From the NCBI GenBank assembly GCA_006738865.1, contig AP019701.1:2042001-2106000 (forward strand): 64,000 nucleotides of DNA, written 5' to 3'. The notes beneath the pieces were generated by a model. That model was given only the letters and a program-made list of their open reading frames with translations. It was not told where the DNA came from and made no database searches. This DNA comes from Allostella sp. ATCC 35155 (GTDB taxonomy: Bacteria; Pseudomonadota; Alphaproteobacteria; ATCC43930; Allostellaceae). The translations under genes and the position numbers were made by a program. This document shows, in pieces, positions 6,537 to 34,178 of this stretch (positions are counted from its first letter, which is position 1; the number at the start of each line of letters is the position of its first letter).

Positions 6537-7835
6537 ATGGTTCGCCGCCTCTCCACCGGCGATGACGGCTTCGAAGCCGGCTTTGCCGCCCTGCTCGCCG
6601 AGAAGCGCGAGGCCGACGAGGACGTCGACCAGATCGCGGCCGGGATCATCGCCGAGGTCCGTGCCCGCGGCGACGCCGCCCTCGTCGACTACACCCGTCG
6701 CTTCGACCGCTTCGATCCCGGCGCCGCGGGCCTGCGCATTGCGCCCGCCGATCTGGCGGCCGCCGTCGATCGCTGCGATCCGTCCACAATTGCCGCCCTC
6801 CGGCTCGCTGCCGGTCGCATCGAGGCGTTCCACCGGGCGCAGATGCCGACCGGGATCGATCATGTCGATGCCGCCGGGGTGCGGCTCGGCCTGGTGTGGC
6901 GGGCGATTCCTGCGGTCGGGCTCTATGTCCCCGGCGGCATCGCCTCCTATCCCAGCTCGGTGCTGATGAATGCGCTGCCGGCCCGGGTCGCTGGTGTCGG
7001 CCGCATCGCGGTGACGGTGCCGACGCCGGACGGCGTGGTGAACCCGCTGGTCCTGGCGGCGCTCGCGATCACCGGCGTCGACGAGGTCTATCGCGTCGGG
7101 GGCGCCCAGGCGGTGGCCGCGCTGGCATACGGCACCGAGACGATCCGGCCCGTCGACAAGATCGTCGGGCCCGGCAACGCCTTCGTCGCCGCCGCCAAGC
7201 GCCGCGTCTTCGGCACGGTCGGGATCGACATGATCGCCGGGCCGTCGGAGATCCTGGTGGTGGCCGACGGCGCGAACGACCCGGAATGGATCGCCGCCGA
7301 CCTGCTGTCCCAGGCCGAGCACGACACGGCCGCGCAGTCGATCCTCCTGACGGACGACGGGCCCTTCGCCGATCGCGTCGTGGCGGCGGTCGCGCGCGCG
7401 CTCGAGACCATGCCGCGGCGGGAGATCGCGGCCGAGAGCTGGAGCCGCTTCGGCGCGGTCATCCTGCTCGGCAGCCTCGACGAGGCGCCGGCGCTGGTCG
7501 ACCGGCTGGCGCCCGAGCACCTGGAATTGGCGGTCGCCGACCCGCAGGCGCTGGCGGACCGCATCACCAATGCCGGCGCGATCTTCCTCGGGCGGCATAC
7601 GCCCGAGGCGGTCGGCGACTATGTCGCCGGGCCGAACCACGTCCTGCCGACGGCGCGCAGCGCCCGCTTCTCGTCGGGGCTGGGCGTGCTCGACTTCCTC
7701 AAGCGCACGACCTTCGTCGCGTGCGATGCCGCCAGCCTGGCGCGGATCGGGCCGGCGGCGGTGACGCTCGCCGAGGCCGAGGGGCTGCATGCCCACGCGC
7801 GGTCGGTCGCGATCCGGCTCGCCGCCGCGGGCTGA
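6537..7835 (+). CDS. hisD: Histidinol dehydrogenase
   Basis: This 432-residue zinc enzyme performs the last two NAD-dependent oxidations of histidine synthesis (L-histidinol to L-histidine). It contains AIPAVGLYVPGG, VGGAQAVAALAYGT, and KIVGPGNAFVAAAKR. SQAEHD contributes a zinc ligand and APEHLEL carries the catalytic Glu-His pair. The C-terminus has GPNHVLPT. The ATG at 6537 follows hisG by two bases. An extended frame starting at 5730 merely overlaps hisG out of frame and is discarded. Confidence 0.97.
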   Translation: MVRRLSTGDDGFEAGFAALLAEKREADEDVDQIAAGIIAEVRARGDAALVDYTRRFDRFDPGAAGLRIAPADLAAAVDRCDPSTIAALRLAAGRIEAFHRAQMPTGIDHVDAAGVRLGLVWRAIPAVGLYVPGGIASYPSSVLMNALPARVAGVGRIAVTVPTPDGVVNPLVLAALAITGVDEVYRVGGAQAVAALAYGTETIRPVDKIVGPGNAFVAAAKRRVFGTVGIDMIAGPSEILVVADGANDPEWIAADLLSQAEHDTAAQSILLTDDGPFADRVVAAVARALETMPRREIAAESWSRFGAVILLGSLDEAPALVDRLAPEHLELAVADPQALADRITNAGAIFLGRHTPEAVGDYVAGPNHVLPTARSARFSSGLGVLDFLKRTTFVACDAASLARIGPAAVTLAEAEGLHAHARSVAIRLAAAG

Positions 7836-7869
7836 GACGCCCGAAGCGGGGTCGGCGGCGGCGGACCCG

Positions 7870-8343
7870 GTGTCCGGCGCCAGCCGCATCGCGCGGATCA
7901 CGCTCGACGAGCATACCGTCCTGCGCCGCAGCCCGGACGTCGAGCACGAGCGGGCGGCCGCCCTGTTCGACCTCGTGGACGAGAATTGCTTCCGGCTCGT
8001 CGGCGGGCCGGACGGCCCTTACCACCTGCATCTCGCGATCTCCGACAATCGCCTCTGCCTCGGCGTGCGCGACGCCGACGACGCGGCGCTGACCGACATC
8101 GTCGTGCCGCTGATGCCGTTCCGGCGGATCGTGCGCGACTATTTCATGATCTGCGAAAGCTACTACGCGGCGATCCGGCGTTCCTCGCCCTCGCAGATCG
8201 AGGCGATCGACATGGGCCGGCGCGCCCTGCACGACGAGGGATCGAGCCAGCTGCGCCAGCGCCTCGCGGACCGGGTCCTCATCGATCATCACACCGCGCG
8301 CCGGCTCTTCACGCTGGTCTGCGTCCTGCACATCCGGGGCTGA
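7870..8343 (+). CDS. UPF0262 family protein, GTG start
   Basis: A 157-residue protein with the UPF0262 pattern: 'IARITLDEHTVLRRSPDVEHERAAALFDL' near the N-terminus, then 'VPLMPFRRIVRDYFMICESYY' and 'IEAIDMGRRALHDEGSS'. Function is unknown. The family is largely alphaproteobacterial and sits between hisD and a low-molecular-weight phosphatase gene, exactly as here. I set the start at GTG 7870 because family members begin close to this point. An ATG 81 bases upstream would overlap hisD and add an Arg/Pro-rich segment absent from relatives. Confidence 0.82.
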   Translation: MSGASRIARITLDEHTVLRRSPDVEHERAAALFDLVDENCFRLVGGPDGPYHLHLAISDNRLCLGVRDADDAALTDIVVPLMPFRRIVRDYFMICESYYAAIRRSSPSQIEAIDMGRRALHDEGSSQLRQRLADRVLIDHHTARRLFTLVCVLHIRG

Positions 8344-8347
8344 GCCG

Positions 8348-8788
8348 TTGCGGCGACCCGGCAGCGTGCTCTTCGCCTGCTCGCACAATTCCGTCCGCTC
8401 GCCCATGGCGGAGGCGATCCTGAAGCATCTGCACCGCGCCCGGATCTTCGCCGATTCCGCGGGCGTCCGGTCAGACCCGATCGACCCCTTCGCGATCGCG
8501 GTGATGGCCGAGATCGGGCTCGACCTGTCGCGCCACCGCTCCAAGAGCTTCGACGAGCTGGAGGACACGTCCTTCGACATGATCGTCACCCTGTCGCCCG
8601 AGGCGCATCACCGGGCGCTGGAGATGACGCGGACGATGGCGGTCGAGGTGGAATACTGGCCGACCTTCGACCCGACCGTGGTCGAGGGCAGCCGCGACAC
8701 GCGGCTGACCGCCTACCGCGCGGTGCGCGACGGCCTGTGGGACCGCATCGCGGCGGCCTTCCCGGGCCTGCCCACGCCGGCGCCGTGA
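8348..8788 (+). CDS. Low-molecular-weight phosphotyrosine phosphatase / arsenate reductase-like protein
   Basis: The 146-residue product has the LMW-PTP P-loop with Cys11 and Arg17 in ACSHNSVRS (C-x5-R-S), and a late Asp in WPTFDP that is placed like the general acid. ArsC-type arsenate reductases share this fold. The hisD–UPF0262–phosphatase context is housekeeping rather than an ars operon, so a protein- or small-molecule phosphatase role is more likely. The start is TTG 8348, four bases after the UPF0262 stop. Confidence 0.83.
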   Translation: MRRPGSVLFACSHNSVRSPMAEAILKHLHRARIFADSAGVRSDPIDPFAIAVMAEIGLDLSRHRSKSFDELEDTSFDMIVTLSPEAHHRALEMTRTMAVEVEYWPTFDPTVVEGSRDTRLTAYRAVRDGLWDRIAAAFPGLPTPAP

Positions 8789-8812
8789 CTGTGCGAAAAG
8801 GGGGGGGCGGTG

Positions 8813-9148
8813 ATGGACTGGAACGGTGTCGTCGAACTCGCCATGGCCAAGCTTCCGGCCGTCGAGAGCGGAACGTCCTACGGCACGCCGGCGCTCAAGG
8901 TCCGCGGCCGCCTGCTGACGCGCTATCGGCCCGAGGACGACAGCGTCACGCTCCACGACGTCCCGCCCAACGAGCGTGAGATGCTGATCGCGGCCGACCC
9001 CTCGGCCTTCCACACGACGCCGCACTACCGCGACCATCCGATCGTGCTGGCGCGTCTCGCCACCCTGCCGCCGGAAGTGCTGCTGCGGTTCCTCGAGCGG
9101 CGCTGGCGGGCGATCGCGCCGAAGCGGCTGGTGGCGGAGTTCGGTTAG
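8813..9148 (+). CDS. MmcQ/YjbR family protein
   Basis: A 111-residue CyaY-like-fold protein of the MmcQ/YjbR (DUF661) group. The family pattern is visible as 'ESGTSYGTPALKVRGRLLTRY', 'VTLHDVPPNEREMLIAADPSAF', and 'APKRLVAEF' at the C-terminus. Members are proposed to bind DNA, but no activity is established. The ATG 8813 follows a purine run; a GTG three bases earlier would add one residue. Its stop overlaps the stop of the convergent uracil-DNA glycosylase gene by four bases. In many relatives infA follows the phosphatase gene here; it does not in this window. Confidence 0.8.
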   Translation: MDWNGVVELAMAKLPAVESGTSYGTPALKVRGRLLTRYRPEDDSVTLHDVPPNEREMLIAADPSAFHTTPHYRDHPIVLARLATLPPEVLLRFLERRWRAIAPKRLVAEFG

Positions 9149-9777
9149 GCGCGAGCCCGCGCCGCCGCCATCGCGATCACCGTGTCGAACATCTCGGGCG
9201 TCAGGCGCCCGGTGTTCGTGTTGTAGCGGGAGGAGTGATAGCTGTCGGCCAGCCAGCGGCCGCCCGGCAGCTCGTGCATCCGGCCATGGCCGAAGGGGTG
9301 GGCGGCCTTGCGCACCGCCAGCGCGGTCAGCACCGCGTCATGGGCGATGCGGCCGAGGGCCAGCATCCCGCCGCCCGGTGCCAGCGCCGCGATCTCCGCG
9401 GCGAGAAACGGCAGGCAGGCCTTCACTTCGGCCGGCGTTGGCTTGTTCTCGGGCGGGACGCAGCGCACGGCGTTGGCAATGCGGCAGCCGGTCAGCGTCA
9501 AGCCGTCGTCCGGGCGGGCGTTGAACGTGCCTGCGGCGAGGCCGTGGCGGATCAGGGTCGGATAGAGGAGGTCGCCCGCCCAGTCGCCGGTGAACGGACG
9601 ACCGGTCCGGTTGGCGCCGCGCAGTCCCGGCGCCAGTCCGACCACGAGCAGCCGGCCGCCGGCAGCGCCGAAGGACGGTACGGGCGCGTTGTGCCACCCG
9701 GGCTCGGCCGCCCGCCAGCGCTCGCGGAAGGCGACGAGGCGGGGGCAGAGGGGACAGTCGCGGCCCGGCGCGAGCAC
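9145..9777 (-). CDS. Uracil-DNA glycosylase, family 5 type
   Basis: This enzyme excises uracil and related deaminated bases from DNA. The N-terminal CPLCPRL supplies two Cys ligands of the 4Fe-4S cluster. FGAAGGRLLVVGLAPGLRGANRTGRPFTGDWAG is the family 5 (UdgB-like) motif 1 region. The second cysteine pair appears to be in GCRIANAVRC, and HSSRYNTNTG near the C-terminus is the motif 3 region. The likely start is GTG 9777, 13 bases past the NYN gene's stop. No clear ribosome-binding site is seen, so the start is uncertain and translational coupling is possible. Confidence 0.88.
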   Translation of the reverse strand: MLAPGRDCPLCPRLVAFRERWRAAEPGWHNAPVPSFGAAGGRLLVVGLAPGLRGANRTGRPFTGDWAGDLLYPTLIRHGLAAGTFNARPDDGLTLTGCRIANAVRCVPPENKPTPAEVKACLPFLAAEIAALAPGGGMLALGRIAHDAVLTALAVRKAAHPFGHGRMHELPGGRWLADSYHSSRYNTNTGRLTPEMFDTVIAMAAARARA

Positions 9778-9790
9778 AGGGTGGCGCCGG

Positions 9791-10381
9791 TCACGCTTCG
9801 TCGTTGGGCGCGGCGGCCGTGTAGCGCGCCGGCAGCCCTTCCTCCCGCGGTCCCTGGCCGCGCTGGATCGACGGGGCAAGGTCCTGGAGGTCGAGGAAGA
9901 CGTCGGCCTGGCGGCGCAACTCGTCGGCGATCATCGGGGGTTGCGAGCGCAGCGTGCTGACCACCGTCACGCGCACGCCCTTGCGCTGCACCGCCTCGAC
10001 CGCCGCCCGGAAGTCGCCGTCGCCCGACATCAGCACGATGTGGTCCACGCGGCTGGCCACCTCCAGCATGTCGACGGCGATCTCGATGTCCATGCTGCCC
10101 TTGAAGCGCCGCCGGCCGGTCGAGTCGGTGAATTCCTTGCTCGGCTTGGTCACCAGCGTGAAGCCGTTGTAGTCGAGCCAGTCGATCAGCGGCCGGAGGG
10201 GCGAATAGTCCTGATCGTCGGTGAAGGTCGTGTAGTAGGAAATCCGGATCAGCCGCGCCTTCTTGCTGAACAGGTCGTGCATGCGGCGATAGTCGATGTC
10301 GAAGCCGAGCGCGCGCGCGGCACCGTAGAAATTCGCACCGTCGATGAAGACCGCAATCCGATCCTCGGGATAGAAATGCAT
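9791..10381 (-). CDS. NYN-domain (LabA/DUF88) putative ribonuclease
   Basis: A 196-residue PIN-like NYN protein. Acidic metal-binding residues are in IDGANFY (Asp14), KGSMDIEIAVDML and SGDGDF, the three signature blocks of the LabA/DUF88 family. These proteins are predicted to cleave RNA; the precise target is unknown. The C-terminal 25 residues are Pro/Gly/Glu-rich and probably flexible. The gene is divergent from folK–rpoZ–rel, its conserved position in Alphaproteobacteria, and shares a 142-base intergenic region with them. Confidence 0.85.
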   Translation of the reverse strand: MHFYPEDRIAVFIDGANFYGAARALGFDIDYRRMHDLFSKKARLIRISYYTTFTDDQDYSPLRPLIDWLDYNGFTLVTKPSKEFTDSTGRRRFKGSMDIEIAVDMLEVASRVDHIVLMSGDGDFRAAVEAVQRKGVRVTVVSTLRSQPPMIADELRRQADVFLDLQDLAPSIQRGQGPREEGLPARYTAAAPNDEA

Positions 10382-27542: not shown

Positions 27543-28313
27543 TCAATCGGCCGCGTCGGCCGACAGCAGCATCGGGTCGGGAATGGCGGGCGGGGGTGCC
27601 ATCGTTGCCCAGCCGGCGGGGCCGAGGGCTTCCAGGGGCTGGAAACGGGTCTTGTAGGCCATCTTGCGGCTGTCGGCGATCCAGTAGCCGAGATAGACGT
27701 AGGGCAGGCTGCGGGCGGCCGCGAGTTCGACGAGGCGCAGCACCAGGATGGTGCCGAGGCTGCGGCGCGGCTCGTCCGGCTCGAAGAAGCTGTAGACGGC
27801 CGACCAGCCGTCGTCGAGGCGATCGGCGAGGCAGGCGGCGTGGAGGCGGCCGGCGCCGTCGCGCATGGTCACCAGCCGGGTCTCGATCGGGCTGTCCTCG
27901 ACCATGGCGCGATAGTCGCCATAGGTCATGGTCGCCATGTCGCTCTCGGCATGGCGCGAGCGCTGGTAGCGGCTGAAGAGGCGGTACTGCTCGCCGGTCG
28001 CCCGCGCCGGTTCCTCGGCGGTGACGAGGTCGTCGCTGAGGCGGGCGAGGCGGCGGAGGTTGCGGCTGGCGACGAACGGTCCGACCGCGACCCGCACCGG
28101 CACGCAGGCATTGCAGCCGGCGCAGGCGGGGCGATAGGCGAGGTGGTGGCTGCGCCGGAAGCCGGCCCGCGACAGGCCGTTGTAGAGCGATGCCGCGGCG
28201 GGGCCCGCGATCTCCGTAAGCACCTTCCGCTCCATCCGCCCGTCGAGGTACGGGCAGGGCAGGGCGGCCGTCCGGTAGAAGTGCTGAAGCGGCTGCGGCG
28301 CGAGACGGTTCAT
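27543..28313 (-). CDS. bpt: Aspartate/glutamate leucyltransferase
   Basis: Bpt attaches leucine from Leu-tRNA to N-terminal Asp or Glu, making a substrate for ClpS/ClpAP in the N-degron pathway. The 256-residue protein has the Cys-rich N-terminal motif PACAGCNACVPVRV and the GNAT-like C-terminal region (YVYLGYWIADSRKMAYKTRFQPLE) of the ATE family. The start at 28313 fits relatives (MNRLAPQPLQHFY); a longer frame adds a non-conserved Arg/Pro segment. It is convergent with parC and divergent from the flavin reductase. Confidence 0.93.
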   Translation of the reverse strand: MNRLAPQPLQHFYRTAALPCPYLDGRMERKVLTEIAGPAAASLYNGLSRAGFRRSHHLAYRPACAGCNACVPVRVAVGPFVASRNLRRLARLSDDLVTAEEPARATGEQYRLFSRYQRSRHAESDMATMTYGDYRAMVEDSPIETRLVTMRDGAGRLHAACLADRLDDGWSAVYSFFEPDEPRRSLGTILVLRLVELAAARSLPYVYLGYWIADSRKMAYKTRFQPLEALGPAGWATMAPPPAIPDPMLLSADAAD

Positions 28314-28447
28314 GGCGGCATTGTCGCCACCGTGGCGGCCCCCGTCCAGCGTCTCGGGGCGGCAATCGCCGGGAATCGTATCGCCGCGGCCGTTCCCGTG
28401 TTGGCGCGGCGGCGGCCTTGCTTTAGACCGATCCACCTTGCCACGAT

Positions 28448-28942
28448 ATGGGCGCCATGCCGTTCGATCATCGCCAGTTCCGCGACGTGATGGGCTGCTT
28501 CGCCACCGGCGTCGCGGTCGCGACCGCAGTCGACGGCCAGGGCCGCCCGGCCGGGGTCACCGTCTCGTCCTTCACGTCGCTCTCGCTCGACCCGCCGCTG
28601 ATCCTCTTCTGCCTGGAATGGACGGCCGAAACCTGGCCGACGTTCCGCGACGGCGAGCATTTCGCCGTCAACATCCTGGGCGAGGGGCAGAGGGGGCTGT
28701 CGTCGCGTTTCGCGGCCATGCGCACCGACCGCTGGTCCGGGGTCGAGCACCGCCGCGGGCTGCATGGCTGCCCCTTGCTGCCGGACACGGTCGGCTGGAT
28801 CGTCTGCCGCAAGGAGACGGTGCACGAGGGCGGCGACCACGCGATCATCGTCGGCCGCGTCGAGGCGCTGGATCGCGACGCGGCCCGCTCGCCGCTGCTG
28901 CACTTCCGTGGCGCCTATGGCCGGTTCCTGCGCGAGGAATAG
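28448..28942 (+). CDS. Flavin reductase-like FMN-binding protein
   Basis: This 164-residue split-barrel protein belongs to the HpaC/flavin reductase-like family. It has FRDVMGCFATGVAVATA at the N-terminus, GVTVSSFTSLSLDPPLILFC (FMN phosphate contacts) and FAVNILGEGQ. It probably reduces FMN or FAD with NAD(P)H for a separate monooxygenase. A luciferase-like monooxygenase lies at 39841, but 11 kb away and on the other strand, so a partnership is speculative. ATGs at 28448 and 28457 are both possible. Confidence 0.85.
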   Translation: MGAMPFDHRQFRDVMGCFATGVAVATAVDGQGRPAGVTVSSFTSLSLDPPLILFCLEWTAETWPTFRDGEHFAVNILGEGQRGLSSRFAAMRTDRWSGVEHRRGLHGCPLLPDTVGWIVCRKETVHEGGDHAIIVGRVEALDRDAARSPLLHFRGAYGRFLREE

Positions 28943-29012
28943 GCGGCTTGCCACCAAATTGGCGCTTCGGTAGCGTCGCGATCCCACCTTTCTACGTCCC
29001 GAGGTAGTTGCG

Positions 29013-30656
29013 ATGGCGCGGATGTCCGGTGGCGACGCTCTCGTCGCGACCCTGGTCGAGCACGGCGTGACGGTCGGTTTCACCGTCCCGGGCGAGAGCT
29101 TCCTCGCCGTGCTGGAGGGGCTGCGCCGCGCGCGCAACCGGATCCGCCTCGTCAACGCCCGCCACGAGGGCTCGGCCGCCTTCGCCGCCGAGGCGTTCGG
29201 CAAGATCGCCGGCCGTCCGGCGGCCGTCTTCGTCAGCCGCGGTCCGGGCGCGACCAACGCCGCCATTGGCATCCATACGGCGATGCAGGATTCGACGCCG
29301 CTGCTGCTCTTCGTCGGCGACGTGCCGCGCCGGGTGCAGGATCGCGAGGCGTTCCAGGGCGTCGACTATCGCCGTTTCTTCGGGGCGATCGCCAAGGCCG
29401 TGATCCAGCCCTTCGGCCCGGAGGACGTCGCCGAGGCGACGGCCCGCGCCTGGCGCACCGCGACGGCCGGACGGCCCGGCCCGGTGGTCGTCGTGCTGCC
29501 CGAGGACGTCACGGAGGCGGAGTTCGAGGGCGGCGCGATTCCCCGGCCGCCGCGCCGCATCGCCGCCGTCTCGGCGCCCGAGACGGTCGCCGCGGCGGCG
29601 GCGGCCATCGCCTCGGCCCGCCTGCCGGTCGTCGTCTTCGGCGAGATGGTCGGCAATGCCGGCACCCACGCCGAACTGGGGCGGTTCCTCGACTGCGCCG
29701 GGGCGCCGGCGTTCGCCGCCTTCCGCCGCCAGGACTGTCTGGCGAATGCCCATCCCGCCTATGGCGGCCACCTCGGCCTGACGCGCGAGCCCCATATCCG
29801 CGAAGCGTGGGCCGAGGCCGACCTCGTCGTCTCCGTCGGCAGCCGCCTCGACGACATGACGACGGAGGAGTTCACCTTCGTGCGCCCCGACCAGACGGTG
29901 GTGCTGCTGCATCCCGATCCGGCCGTCGCGGCCACGGCCGGGGCGGACATCCATCTCGCCGGCGACCTCGGGCCGACGCTGGAGGCGCTGGCGGCGGCCC
30001 TGCCGGCTCCGCCGATCGAACGCATCCGGCGCCGCGACCGGGTGCACGCCGCCGAGGCCGCCCATGCCGGCTTCGACCAGCGTCCGGCGATCGGCGCCGT
30101 CGACATGGTCAAGGTGATCGAGGCCGTCGCCGATGTGGTGCCGGCGGACGCCATGATCGCGACCGATGCCGGAACCTTCGGCAGCTGGGTCTATCGCCAC
30201 TATCCCTGGCGCGGCCCCCGCACGCAGGTCGCGCCCGAGGTGGGGGCGATGGGGGCGGGAGTGCCGGGCGCGATCGGCGCCGCGCTCGCCCGGCCCGATG
30301 CCACGATCGTCGCCTTCGTCGGCGACGGCGGCTTCCTGATGACCGGGTCGGAACTGGCCACCGCCGTCGAGGAGGGCATCCCCGTCAAGGTCGTGCTCTG
30401 CGACAACCAGGCCTACGCCTCGATCCTGATCCACCAGCACCGGCGCTATGGCGCCGACGCCTATCACGGTGTCACGACCAAGAGCCCCGACTTCGCCACG
30501 CTGGCCCGCGGCTACGGGGCCGCAGCCTGGACGGTGCGCGAGACGGCGGAATTCGCGCCGGCGTTCCGCGCCGCGCTCGCCCATGACGGGCCGGCGCTCG
30601 TCCATGTGCTGACCGACATCCGCGACGGCTCGGCGAACGGGCCGCTCCAGCGATGA
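29013..30656 (+). CDS. Thiamine diphosphate-dependent enzyme, acetolactate-synthase-like
   Basis: A 547-residue three-domain ThDP enzyme. The cofactor-activating Glu52 lies in NARHEGSAAFAAEA, GPGATNAAIGIHTAMQDSTPLLLFVGD is the N-terminal signature, and GDGGFLMTGSELATAVEEGIPVKVVLCDN is the Mg-ThDP motif (GDG...N). The family includes acetolactate synthases, oxalyl-CoA decarboxylases and 2-oxoacid decarboxylases. No small ilvH-like subunit is present, arguing against branched-chain synthesis. The stop overlaps the CoA-transferase start (ATGA), which suggests they act in one pathway on a decarboxylated or CoA-linked acid. Confidence 0.87.
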   Translation: MARMSGGDALVATLVEHGVTVGFTVPGESFLAVLEGLRRARNRIRLVNARHEGSAAFAAEAFGKIAGRPAAVFVSRGPGATNAAIGIHTAMQDSTPLLLFVGDVPRRVQDREAFQGVDYRRFFGAIAKAVIQPFGPEDVAEATARAWRTATAGRPGPVVVVLPEDVTEAEFEGGAIPRPPRRIAAVSAPETVAAAAAAIASARLPVVVFGEMVGNAGTHAELGRFLDCAGAPAFAAFRRQDCLANAHPAYGGHLGLTREPHIREAWAEADLVVSVGSRLDDMTTEEFTFVRPDQTVVLLHPDPAVAATAGADIHLAGDLGPTLEALAAALPAPPIERIRRRDRVHAAEAAHAGFDQRPAIGAVDMVKVIEAVADVVPADAMIATDAGTFGSWVYRHYPWRGPRTQVAPEVGAMGAGVPGAIGAALARPDATIVAFVGDGGFLMTGSELATAVEEGIPVKVVLCDNQAYASILIHQHRRYGADAYHGVTTKSPDFATLARGYGAAAWTVRETAEFAPAFRAALAHDGPALVHVLTDIRDGSANGPLQR

Positions 30657-31894
30657 CGCCGCGCGGACCGCTCGACGGCGTGCGCGTCGTCGACCTCACG
30701 GCGGTCTTTCTCGGGCCGCTCGCCTCGCAGACCCTGGGCGATCTCGGGGCCGACGTGATCAAGGTCGAGACCCCGGACGGGGATATCACCCGCTCGATCG
30801 CCCCGGCGCGCAATCCCGGCATGGGTGCCGGATTTCTGGCCGTCAACCGCAACAAGCGGTCGGTCGTGCTCGACCTCAAGCAGGCGGCGGGCCGCGCGGC
30901 GCTGCAGCGGCTGGTGGCCGGCGCGGACGTGCTGATGCACTCGATGCGCCCGCAGGCGATCGACCGCCTCGGCTTCGGCCCGGAGGCGGCGCGCGCGATC
31001 AACCCCGGCATCATCCATTGCGGCGCCTACGGCTATCGCCGCGACGGTCCGCATGGCTGGCGCCCGGCCTATGACGACGTGATCCAGGGGGCATGCGGCC
31101 TCGCCGCCCTCCAGGCCTATGTCGCCGGCGAGCCGCAATACGTCCCCAACTCGATGGTCGACAAGCTGGTCGGCCTCACCGTTTCCTCGGCGATCACGGC
31201 CGCCCTGTTCCACCGCGCGCGCACGGGCGAGGGGCAGGCGATCGAGATCCCGATGTACGAGACGATGGTGGCGTTCCTCTTCCCCGAGCACATGGCCGGG
31301 CGCAGCTTCCGGCCGCCGATGGGGCCGCCGGGATATGGACGCGTGCTGGCGCCGCATCGGCGGCCCTACCGCACCGCCGACGGCCATATCGGCGTGCTGC
31401 CCTATACGGTGCAGCAGTGGCAGCGGGTGTTCCGCCTGATCGGCCGGCCGGAGATGGCCGAGGATCCGCGGGTGACCGACGGCGCCACCCGCAGCCGCCA
31501 TGTCGGCGAACTCTACGCCATGGTCGCCGCGGCCATGCCGGAGCGGAGCACGGCGGACTGGCATCGCGCCTTCGACGAGGCCGATATCCCGGCGATGCCG
31601 GTGCAGGATCTGGAGGCGGTGCTCGACTGTCCGCACCTGGCGGCGACCGGCTTCTTCGAGACCCATGCCCACGAGACCGAGGGCGATCTCGTCTTTCTCG
31701 GCCACCCGGTTCGCTACGAGCGCACGCCCGCCGGCATCCGGCGCCTGCCGCCGCGGCTCGGCGAGCACACGGTCGAAGTGCTGGCCGAAGCCGGCTTCGC
31801 TGCGTCCGAGATCGACGCCCTGATCGCGGCCGGCGCCGCCCGGTCCCGGACCGCACCGCCCGACGAAAACCATCCAACCGGAGGAAACCCATGA
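30653..31894 (+). CDS. Class III CoA-transferase (CaiB/BaiF family)
   Basis: A 413-residue family III CoA-transferase that moves CoA between carboxylic acids by an aspartyl-CoA-thioester mechanism. It starts GPLDGVRVVDLTAVFLGPLASQTLGDLGADVIKVE, the family's N-terminal Rossmann block. The likely catalytic Asp170 is in SMVDKLVGL, aligned with Asp169 of formyl-CoA transferase. RTGEGQAIEIPMYE and the C-terminal PRLGEHTVEVLAEAGF also fit. It is coupled to both neighbours through 4-base overlaps. Donor and acceptor acids are unknown. Confidence 0.9.
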   Translation: MTPRGPLDGVRVVDLTAVFLGPLASQTLGDLGADVIKVETPDGDITRSIAPARNPGMGAGFLAVNRNKRSVVLDLKQAAGRAALQRLVAGADVLMHSMRPQAIDRLGFGPEAARAINPGIIHCGAYGYRRDGPHGWRPAYDDVIQGACGLAALQAYVAGEPQYVPNSMVDKLVGLTVSSAITAALFHRARTGEGQAIEIPMYETMVAFLFPEHMAGRSFRPPMGPPGYGRVLAPHRRPYRTADGHIGVLPYTVQQWQRVFRLIGRPEMAEDPRVTDGATRSRHVGELYAMVAAAMPERSTADWHRAFDEADIPAMPVQDLEAVLDCPHLAATGFFETHAHETEGDLVFLGHPVRYERTPAGIRRLPPRLGEHTVEVLAEAGFAASEIDALIAAGAARSRTAPPDENHPTGGNP

Positions 31895-32595
31895 CCAACC
31901 TGACGCAGGCCGATCTCGACGCGCTCACCGCCTGGGATACGCCGACCATCTGCAACGCGCTGGAACTGACCTCGCCCGAGCGCCGGGCGACCGGCTTCAC
32001 GGTGCGCCACCTGCATTGCCCCTTCCCGGAGCTGAAGCCGATCATCGGCTATGCGCGCACGGCGATGATCCGGTCCAAGCATGTCCCGACGCGGGACAAG
32101 GCGGCGATGCGCCAGCAGCGCACCGGCTATTACGAATATGTCGCCGCCGGCCCGCGCCCGACCGTCTCCGTGATCCAGGACCTGGACGGCCCGGATGTCG
32201 GCTTCGGGGCCTTCTGGGGCGAGGTGCAGACGAACATCCACAAGGGTCTGGGTTGCCTCGGCGTCGTCACCGACGGCTGCATCCGCGACCTCGATATGGT
32301 GGCCGAGGGCTTCCAGATGCTGGCGGCCTCCTACGCGCCGTCGCACGCCCATGTCCATCTGGTCGATTTCGGCAGCCAGGTGCAGGTCGCCGGCATGATC
32401 GTCAGCTCCAATGACCTCATCCATGCCGACCGCCATGGCGCCGTCGTCGTGCCGGCCGACGCGGTCAAGAAGATCCCCGCCGCCATCGACCTCCTCACGC
32501 GGCGCGAGAAGGTCATCCTCGACGCCGCCAAGAGCCCCGACTTCGACATCGAGAAGCTGAAGAAGGCGATGGGCGAGGCGGACGAGATTCACTGA
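31891..32595 (+). CDS. RraA-like aldolase/decarboxylase family protein
   Basis: A 234-residue RraA-fold protein. The signature GCLGVVTDGCIRDLD carries the Arg132-Asp133 pair seen in HMG/CHA aldolases and oxaloacetate decarboxylases. Members with this active site split 4-hydroxy-2-oxoacids to pyruvate plus a carbonyl compound. Being coupled to a CoA-transferase and a ThDP enzyme supports a catabolic rather than an RNase-E-inhibitor role. GGAGG precedes the ATG. The C-terminal tail (PDFDIEKLKKAMGEADEIH) extends beyond the core fold. Confidence 0.87.
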   Translation: MTNLTQADLDALTAWDTPTICNALELTSPERRATGFTVRHLHCPFPELKPIIGYARTAMIRSKHVPTRDKAAMRQQRTGYYEYVAAGPRPTVSVIQDLDGPDVGFGAFWGEVQTNIHKGLGCLGVVTDGCIRDLDMVAEGFQMLAASYAPSHAHVHLVDFGSQVQVAGMIVSSNDLIHADRHGAVVVPADAVKKIPAAIDLLTRREKVILDAAKSPDFDIEKLKKAMGEADEIH

Positions 32596-32622
32596 GGCGC
32601 TGGCCTGTCTGGAGTTGCATCG

Positions 32623-33786
32623 GTGAAGCCCGCGAACAGCATCCTGTCCGGCTACGGCACGACCGTCTTCGAGGTCATGTCGCAGCTGGCCCGTGCCCAT
32701 GACGCCGTCAATCTCGGCCAGGGCTTCCCGGACGACCGCGGCCCGGAGGACGTCCTCCGGGCCGCGGCCGATGCCGTCGTCGACGGGCCGAACCAGTACC
32801 CGCCGATGACCGGCATCCCGGAGCTGCGGCAGGCGGTGGCGGCGCACGGCAAGCGCTTCTATGGGCTCGATGTCGACTGGCAGCGCGAGGTGCTGGTGAC
32901 CTCGGGCGCGACCGAGGCGCTGGCCTCGTGCCTCTTCGGCCTGATCGAGCCGGGCGACGAGGTGGTGCTGTTCGATCCGCTCTATGACAGCTACCTGCCG
33001 ATCGTGCGCCGGGCCGGCGGCATCCCCAAGCTGGTGCAACTGGCACCCCCGGCATGGGAACTGCCGCTCGACCGGCTCAAGGCGGCCTTCAGCGACCGCA
33101 CCAAGCTGGTGCTGCTGAACACGCCGATGAACCCGGCCGCCAAGGTCTTCACGCGCGCGGAACTGGGCGAGATCGCCGCGCTCCTGGAGAAGCACGACGC
33201 CTATGCCGTCTGCGACGAGGTCTACGAGCACATCGTGTTCGACGCGCGGCGGCACGAGAGCCTGATCACCCTGCCGGGAATGCGCGAGCGCTGCCTCAAG
33301 ATCGGCTCGGCCGGCAAGACCTTCTCGCTGACCGGCTGGAAGGTCGGCTACGTCACCGCCGCGGCCGAACTGCTGGCGCCGGTCATGCGCGCCCATCAGT
33401 TCCTGGTCTTCACCACGCCGCCCAACCTGCAGCGCGCGGTCGCCCAGGGGCTGGCGAAGGGCTCGGACTATTTCGACGGGCTCGCTGCCGGGATGGCGGC
33501 CAAGCGCGACCGCCTCTCCGCCGGGCTGACGCGGATCGGTTTCGACGTGCTGCCCTGCGAGGGCACCTACTTCGTCAACGCCGACTTCCGCCCGCTCGGC
33601 TTCAACGGCGACGACGAGGCCTTCTGCAAGCACATCACGGCAGAGGCGAAGGTGGCGGCCATTCCCGTCAGCGCCCTCTATGCCGATGGCGCGGTGCGGA
33701 ACTATGCGCGCTTCTGCTTCGCCAAGCGCGACGAGATCCTGGACGAGGCCGTCGACCGCCTGAGCCGGTTCTTCGGCGCTGGCTAA
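32623..33786 (+). CDS. Class I/II PLP-dependent aminotransferase, GTG start
   Basis: A 387-residue fold-type I aminotransferase. The Schiff-base Lys232 is in SAGKTFSLTGWKVGY. NTPMNPAAKVF, the aspartate in AVCDEVYEH and the C-terminal YARFCFAK arginine complete the pattern. The sequence is nearest to the N-succinyldiaminopimelate/kynurenine/glutamine-transaminase branch (DapC, YbdL), and it starts like them: NSILSGYGTTVFEVMSQLA. It follows the RraA-like gene by 27 bases. It may remove an amino group in the same pathway or be a general enzyme. Its stop overlaps the convergent response-regulator gene. Confidence 0.88.
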   Translation: MKPANSILSGYGTTVFEVMSQLARAHDAVNLGQGFPDDRGPEDVLRAAADAVVDGPNQYPPMTGIPELRQAVAAHGKRFYGLDVDWQREVLVTSGATEALASCLFGLIEPGDEVVLFDPLYDSYLPIVRRAGGIPKLVQLAPPAWELPLDRLKAAFSDRTKLVLLNTPMNPAAKVFTRAELGEIAALLEKHDAYAVCDEVYEHIVFDARRHESLITLPGMRERCLKIGSAGKTFSLTGWKVGYVTAAAELLAPVMRAHQFLVFTTPPNLQRAVAQGLAKGSDYFDGLAAGMAAKRDRLSAGLTRIGFDVLPCEGTYFVNADFRPLGFNGDDEAFCKHITAEAKVAAIPVSALYADGAVRNYARFCFAKRDEILDEAVDRLSRFFGAG

Positions 33787-34178
33787 CCGGCAGGCTGGGC
33801 GCGGCGCAGGAGACCCAGCACGCGCTCGACATCGGGCAGCATGAAGGGCTTGGGCAGGGCGGGGTGCCCGCGCCACTCGGCCGGCATCCCTGCGAGGTCG
33901 TAGCCGGTGCTGAAGGCGAACGGGATGCCGCCCTCCGCGAGCAGGGTCGCCAGGGGAAAGCTCGGCTCGCCTGCGATGTTGACGTCGATGATCGCGGCGT
34001 CGGCCCCGCCCGGCTGCTCGCTCATATAGGCCCGCGCCTCGGCAATCTCCGAGAACGGGCCGACGGTCCGGCAGCCGAGGTCCGTCAGCATGTCGTCCAG
34101 CAGCATCGCCACCAGCGCCTCATCCTCCAGCACCAGCACGCGCATGCCGCCGAAGGCGGTCTCGCTCGCGGCCGTCAT
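33783..34178 (-). CDS. Single-domain response regulator
   Basis: A 131-residue receiver-only protein. The acidic pocket is Glu18-Asp19, the phospho-acceptor is Asp65 (IIDVNIAG), the Thr/Ser position is Thr91 in FSTGYD, and Lys110 is in LPKPF. There is no output domain, so it likely relays phosphate or binds a partner, as many alphaproteobacterial FAT-GUY-type receivers do; FSTGYD is close to that motif. No histidine kinase is adjacent. No ribosome-binding site precedes the ATG at 34178. A 15-codon frame ending in ATGA at this start may provide coupled translation. Confidence 0.87.
   Translation of the reverse strand: MTAASETAFGGMRVLVLEDEALVAMLLDDMLTDLGCRTVGPFSEIAEARAYMSEQPGGADAAIIDVNIAGEPSFPLATLLAEGGIPFAFSTGYDLAGMPAEWRGHPALPKPFMLPDVERVLGLLRRAQPAG

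Follow-up and report, generated by a model that had tools for sequence, protein, structure and literature searches.

In a stretch of 64,000 nucleotides from Allostella sp. ATCC 35155 (contig AP019701.1, positions 2,042,001 to 2,106,000; the whole stretch is here called the window and is numbered from its first letter), three enzyme genes form a tight run on the + strand: a thiamine diphosphate (ThDP)-dependent enzyme, a class III coenzyme A (CoA) transferase and an RraA-like protein. The window comes from a 5.34 Mb genome of Stella, a star-shaped bacterium of the Alphaproteobacteria. The run is real and translationally coupled, and it consists of known kinds of enzymes in a combination that was not found outside one genus. 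We give an even chance to the reading that it is a genus-specific catabolic operon of Stella, in which the trio works on an organic acid of the oxoacid or hydroxyacid kind. At about even odds, a common pathway comes ahead of each rival explanation.

The ThDP enzyme (29013..30656, 547 residues, acetolactate-synthase-like, with the N, M and C TPP_enzyme domains) is followed by the CoA-transferase (30653..31894, 413 residues; CoA_transf_3, PF02515, 4.2e-110) and then by the RraA-like putative class II aldolase or decarboxylase (31891..32595, 234 residues; PF03737, with E111-X20-R132-D133). Consecutive genes overlap by 4 bp, at 30653-30656 and at 31891-31894. An earlier note on this DNA had read these overlaps as the sign of one operon, and the coupled arrangement supports an operon-like unit; both overlaps are real in the window, but only the one between the ThDP and CoA-transferase genes is kept in the three related loci (L115, L149 and L116). 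In four Stella genomes (G000, G385, G386 and G387) the trio lies on one strand, in the same order and place; G387 corresponds by its coordinates to S. vacuolata and G386 likewise to the metagenome-assembled genome (MAG) SJ646, where the trio is divided over two contigs. The nearest named genome found is that of S. vacuolata ATCC 43931, with 86% identity in the ThDP enzyme. A flavin reductase gene upstream occupies the same place in L115, L149 and L123.

The ratio of nonsynonymous to synonymous substitution rates (dN/dS, by NG86 against three relatives, or two for the flavin reductase) is 0.07-0.29 overall for the three genes together with the flavin reductase and a downstream aminotransferase, and all five are therefore maintained genes and not chance frames. 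In the comparisons with L115 and L149, RraA has values of 0.07-0.10, the aminotransferase 0.10-0.12, the ThDP enzyme 0.17-0.18, the CoA-transferase 0.19-0.26 and the flavin reductase 0.28-0.29; with L116 the values are 0.16 for RraA, 0.18 for the aminotransferase, 0.19 for the CoA-transferase and 0.27 for the ThDP enzyme. RraA has the lowest value in every comparison. The two contigs of MAG SJ646 (L116 and L123) each carry a part of the ThDP gene, and these parts are unequally close to that of the window: residues 1-152 are 93% identical and residues 112-547 are 78% identical, possibly because of mixed strains or recombination.

The combination was sought in 385 genomes of the class, with each of the three proteins (E <= 1e-120 for the ThDP enzyme, E <= 1e-100 for the CoA-transferase and E <= 1e-20 for RraA, with at most 3, 4 and 7 candidates, respectively, scored per genome). 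Among the 384 other genomes a match was obtained in 26, 72 and 73, respectively. Further, 43 genomes of the order were searched with the ThDP enzyme and 398 genomes of the phylum with RraA; the latter search gave matches at E <= 1e-40 in 25 genomes, every one of them from this class. A scan of named genomes with the ThDP enzyme, which detects close relatives only, gave 14 loci: three from Stella or MAG SJ646, seven at 49-51% identity and four at 24-26%. None of these searches, at class, order, phylum or named-genome level, brought up the trio in a second lineage. The earlier note had proposed to look for the same block elsewhere, and nothing of the kind turned up outside Stella.

Gene neighbourhoods were studied for 20 ThDP loci (L129-L148, from 19 of the 26 other genomes with a match, up to 16 kb), for seven CoA-transferase loci (L150-L156, out of 72 other genomes) and for 72 RraA loci in as many genomes (65 of the 73 other class matches and seven from the phylum; up to 16 kb, with 12 shorter than 12 kb because of contig ends). 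Neighbours were labelled by BLAST against a small reference set of annotated plasmid and E. coli genes, while the labels LivJ, DctP, ABC and MFS are our own reading. The 20 ThDP loci contain no RraA, flavin reductase or aminotransferase match, and one of them (L132) has a distant CoA-transferase (31%). When flanks of 1.5 kb are considered, 16 ThDP loci of the order include no RraA match and one CoA-transferase match (L107), 22 RraA loci from the phylum list include no CoA-transferase and two ThDP matches (L204 and L196, the latter in the same genome as L261), and 11 ThDP loci of named genomes have neither an RraA nor a CoA-transferase match. In L107 (G412, of the same order) a PRK08199-like ThDP gene adjoins a gene on the other strand for a class III CoA-transferase that is 28% identical to the CoA-transferase of the window and 36% identical to E. 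coli Frc. In G011 the RraA gene and a gene for a CoA-transferase of 47% identity are divergent neighbours (L235). In the open-licence literature nothing was found that joins the RraA family, CoA transferase and thiamine pyrophosphate, nor on an RraA-like aldolase in a catabolic gene cluster.

Several of these observations weigh against a common pathway. At the thresholds used, in none of the 384 other class genomes does a ThDP match lie close, by coordinates, to an RraA or CoA-transferase match. In the 72 RraA loci a ThDP enzyme was seen four times, a CoA-transferase once, a flavin reductase once and an aminotransferase four times; by an informal estimate the ThDP and CoA-transferase counts are roughly what chance would give, because there are up to dozens of candidates for these two enzymes per genome. 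In the genomes of one family (f171) RraA is found among unrelated genes. The CoA-transferase/RraA overlap is absent in the relatives, where the two genes are instead separated by 36 bp (L115), by 63 bp (L116) and, if RraA starts with the same MTNL, by 31 bp (L149). The whole neighbourhood is collinear within the genus, flanking genes included, and synteny within the genus therefore says little. In addition, the operon has no transporter or regulator that would indicate a substrate.

These points bear on a rival explanation, that the genes are co-transcribed in Stella without a common pathway, generic members of large enzyme families having come to lie side by side in this lineage. We consider this possible but somewhat doubtful. 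It agrees with the lack of the trio in the other class genomes sampled and with the differing contexts in which relatives of each gene are found. In the genome itself a first look gives 37 candidate CoA-transferases, and the oxalyl-CoA decarboxylase model matches 13 times, never above its cut-off. Further, RraA is far better conserved against L115 and L149 (94-96% identity) than the ThDP enzyme (84-86%) and the CoA-transferase (82-83%). Against it stand the retention of the ThDP/CoA-transferase overlap in all three relatives and the fact that all three genes are intact and under purifying selection.

The ThDP enzyme has the features of the ThDP decarboxylase superfamily: three TPP domains, a cofactor-activating glutamate (Glu52, by alignment) and a GDG...N motif, with GDG from residue 437 and DN from residue 464. 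The best profile is PRK08199 (NF006052, 'thiamine pyrophosphate protein', an acetolactate-synthase-like family to which no function has been given by name), with 516 bits against a cut-off of 539, so the enzyme falls below it; on the same model the related L115 scores 526 and the clade mate L129 scores 572. The next-best profiles are those of acetolactate synthases, near 300 bits. A tree (75 rows, after four of 79 had been omitted as identical to another row or shorter than 381 residues) was built quickly, rooted on Oxc, and has long branches and SH-aLRT support alone. In it the enzyme stands apart from E. coli Oxc, in a 58-row clade with support 100 that is divided into two sister groups (supports 95 and 99). 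One group holds the full PRK08199 members, including a second copy from the same genome (835 bits); the other, with support 99, unites the Stella enzymes with enzymes from other Alphaproteobacteria that are about 50% identical. Outside the 58-row clade fall Oxc, IlvB, IlvI, Gcl and PoxB of E. coli. ThDP matches occur in 27 of the 385 class genomes, and at least one of them (L092) falls outside the sister clade. The gene of the second copy (G000:C1:3925646-3927238, in L295) has TRAP-transporter-like genes a few genes away.

Profile, tree and fold place the ThDP enzyme of the window in the sister clade of PRK08199, and among oxalyl-CoA decarboxylase, acetolactate synthase, glyoxylate carboligase and pyruvate oxidase it has no orthologue. 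A structure model of moderate quality (pLDDT 72) has acetolactate synthases as its nearest solved folds, and the 50 best matches shown include no oxalyl-CoA decarboxylase. In a sequence search, chains of oxalyl-CoA decarboxylase do match, with 120 bits where acetolactate synthase has 216. No mention of PRK08199 occurs in the open-licence papers that the literature search listed.

A ThDP enzyme that adjoins a class III CoA-transferase recalls frc-oxc of E. coli, and the block could accordingly be an ordinary oxalate operon of formyl-CoA transferase and oxalyl-CoA decarboxylase. The evidence makes this extremely improbable. The ThDP enzyme reaches 98.1 bits on the oxalyl-CoA decarboxylase model (TIGR03254), where the cut-off is 739.4, and it is 23% identical to E. 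coli Oxc; the CoA-transferase reaches 201.4 bits on the formyl-CoA transferase model (TIGR03253, oxalate_frc), where the cut-off is 504.2, and it is 29% identical to Frc. Tree and fold place the ThDP enzyme nearer to acetolactate synthases. As a matter of orthology the oxalate operon is rejected on profile, tree, fold and identity to Oxc and Frc, and the distinction from oxalate degradation that the earlier note had drawn is borne out.

The relation to acetolactate synthases suggests another rival, in which an acetolactate-synthase-like carboligase serves a biosynthetic or acetoin-type route and the aminotransferase completes an amino acid. The best solved relatives of the ThDP enzyme are of this kind, it is 31% identical to E. 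coli IlvB, and an aminotransferase gene does lie downstream. However, the score on the acetolactate synthase model (TIGR00118) is 300.6 bits against a cut-off of 538.35, no regulatory-subunit gene was seen among the scanned neighbours, E. coli IlvI groups, at support 99, with a different paralogue from this genome (L169), and a route of this type offers no role for the CoA-transferase and RraA. We regard this rival as improbable; an acetolactate synthase identity is itself unlikely from the profile score and the placement in the tree.

The CoA-transferase matches PF02515 over its full length and has the aspartate nucleophile of class III: Asp170 aligns with the nucleophile of Rv3272, which is Ala in the 5yiy variant. 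It is below the cut-off of all seven NCBIfam members that it matched.

Similarly, the RraA-like protein passes no NCBIfam cut-off (the best score is 48.7 bits against 208), and on the ligK_PcmE model it has 25.7 bits against a cut-off of 304.5. An R-D site of the 4-hydroxy-2-oxoacid-aldolase type, which the earlier note had given as a GxRD active site, is present, as R132-D133. The D-X20-R-D motif, a name that reportedly comes from a 2014 paper by Mazurkewich and co-workers, is not complete: Glu111 replaces the Asp 21 residues before the Arg. W-G-E-X20-R-D is present in 60 of 61 in-frame relative rows, with L020_41 as the sole exception. The count started from 69 RraA rows and E. coli RraA, and eight rows were set aside by eye, either for a wrong frame (L115_96, L157_65, L163_62, L096_96 and L183_39) or because the site was not covered (L066, L178 and L097); it includes the window twice (as window and as L006) and several close relatives. 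Relatives at E <= 1e-20 occur in 74 of the 385 class genomes, with the motif read in the rows counted above only. The weakly matching solved relatives 3k4i and 5x15, whose function is unnamed, carry G-D-X20-R-D. A structure model built from three near-identical sequences (pLDDT 34) was not used. Our best guess from the sequence is that the protein catalyses an aldolase- or oxaloacetate-decarboxylase-type reaction, because in the HMG/CHA aldolase of P. putida, according to an excerpt of PMC5065237, Arg-123 stabilises the pyruvate enolate and Asp-124 binds the metal.

The relatives of the ThDP enzyme and of RraA keep different company. In six of the 20 ThDP loci a RidA-like protein is encoded directly upstream (L129, L135, L138, L144, L145 and L148), and in six a FemAB-like protein (PF04339) directly downstream (L135, L137, L140, L141, L144 and L145); one neighbour of each kind was confirmed by Pfam. 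Near RraA, on the other hand, we found histidinol-dehydrogenase-like genes in 12 of the 72 loci, DctM in 11, LacI in eight and an IlvD/AraD dehydratase in three. In L240 Ldh_2 is immediately upstream of RraA, and in L162, L165 and L166 liv-type transporter genes are upstream. On plasmids of Variovorax, Advenella, Paracoccus, Roseibium and Ruegeria (six of 51 plasmid matches were inspected) RraA is flanked by genes of hydroxyacid or sugar-acid type. Such neighbours suggest hydroxyacid or oxoacid breakdown.

A recurrent RraA cluster of varying composition contains histidinol-dehydrogenase-like, SDR, LacI, SnoaL, cupin, methionine-synthase-II-like and alpha/beta hydrolase genes (L259-L261, L263-L265, L290, L292, L293 and the plasmid loci L181, L182 and L184). 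It looks like a catabolic pathway to which no name can be assigned. Of the four ThDP genes near RraA, two encode full PRK08199 members: in L261 the gene, scoring 829 bits, directly follows an RraA-like gene after 60 bp (the pair at 7824-10322), independently of Stella, and in L248 the gene (776 bits) is four genes away. This is suggestive only. A further tight run, on a plasmid of Variovorax sp. PBL-E5 (L183, 2600-7675), encodes a ThDP enzyme from another branch of the tree, a TctC binding protein, AtuA, DUF4387 and RraA; the end of a ThDP gene 68% identical to it lies near the RraA gene of L204.

If the three enzymes of the window do act on one organic acid, the RraA-like enzyme would cleave a 4-hydroxy-2-oxoacid or decarboxylate an oxaloacetate-like beta-oxoacid, the ThDP enzyme would decarboxylate or ligate the 2-oxoacid released upstream, and the CoA-transferase would activate a carboxylic acid that enters or leaves the route. 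The branched or hydroxylated oxoacid that the earlier note named as substrate is a guess. A more specific proposal, which we think rather unlikely, is an undescribed route for the breakdown of organic acids, in which the E-X20-R-D RraA-like enzyme passes its product to a ThDP enzyme from an uncharacterised clade and activation occurs by CoA transfer; the L261 pair would represent another version of this chemistry.

In addition to the trio, the open reading frame list and domain searches place two more + strand genes in 28448-33786, giving the order flavin reductase, ThDP enzyme, CoA-transferase, RraA-like protein, aminotransferase. The genes that the earlier note had described were confirmed with their positions; the start of its range, 28448, belongs to the flavin reductase, which its title had left out. 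This protein (28448..28942, 164 residues, HsaB/HpaC/FerA type; PF01613, 1.4e-38) is encoded 70 bp before the ThDP gene and is below the cut-off of the eight NCBIfam members matched, the best being HsaB with 157 bits against 230. The class I/II aminotransferase (32623..33786, 387 residues; Aminotran_1_2) has a GTG start 27 bp after the end of RraA and is a PRK08912 equivalog (NF006488, 656.3 bits against a cut-off of 498).

The aminotransferase had been counted as part of the specific set, a view that we do not retain. Its family is common, with members in 24 of 96 class genomes including its own; of the 23 others, 19 loci were scanned with flanks of 1.5 kb, and none of these 19 shows a ThDP, CoA-transferase, RraA or flavin reductase match. 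Matches of 58-62% lie several genes from RraA in three of the 72 RraA loci (L168, L281 and L286); these are f171 genomes, with the two genes within about 16 kb. The aminotransferase is probably co-transcribed and carried along, and doubtful as a pathway member; both it and the flavin reductase are probably co-transcribed neighbours whose pathway role is unsupported.

The block is bounded by two - strand genes outside the operon. The divergent one encodes an arginyl-tRNA-protein transferase (27543..28436; PF04376/PF04377), whose true start, judging from shorter relatives, is probably near 28313. The convergent one, for a response-regulator receiver-like protein (33783..34178; PF00072, 1.1e-4, under the gathering score), overlaps the end of the aminotransferase gene by 4 bp. 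Antisense frames longer than the sense genes cover the block, for instance 28992-30605 and 31714-33876. Codon preference favours the sense frames; since the codon model was trained on the same proteins and their homologues, the choice leans on Pfam matches and selection. A promoter scan found none, terminator-like sites number three where 1.4 are expected, Rfam gave no match, and the PHROGs search matched one family, of unknown function.

If the three genes do work together, the ThDP clade sister to PRK08199 and the E-X20-R-D subfamily of RraA-like proteins, for neither of which we found a function, would each gain their first. If they do not, the locus is a caution against taking generic enzymes that lie side by side within a single genus for a pathway.

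Among known systems, the HMG/CHA and RraA-like class II aldolases (LigK/PcmE; P. putida F1, in the excerpt of PMC5065237) share with the window protein the Aldolase/RraA family, R132-D133 and a Gly before the first acidic residue of the motif, but the low ligK_PcmE score and the Glu in place of Asp set it apart, in an unnamed subfamily. From the PRK08912 aminotransferases no difference is seen in the window protein, and elsewhere they are found apart from the set. The best solved relatives of the CoA-transferase, Rv3272 and SUGCT, match over nearly the full length with the Asp retained, whereas the window protein passes no named NCBIfam subfamily. PRK08199 is the best profile of the ThDP enzyme and shares a clade with it at support 100, but the window enzyme is under the cut-off and in a separate sister clade at support 99. 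Finally, frc-oxc of E. coli K-12 has the same pairing of ThDP enzyme and class III CoA-transferase, but neither gene is orthologous, the order is reversed, and the window has an RraA-like gene in addition.

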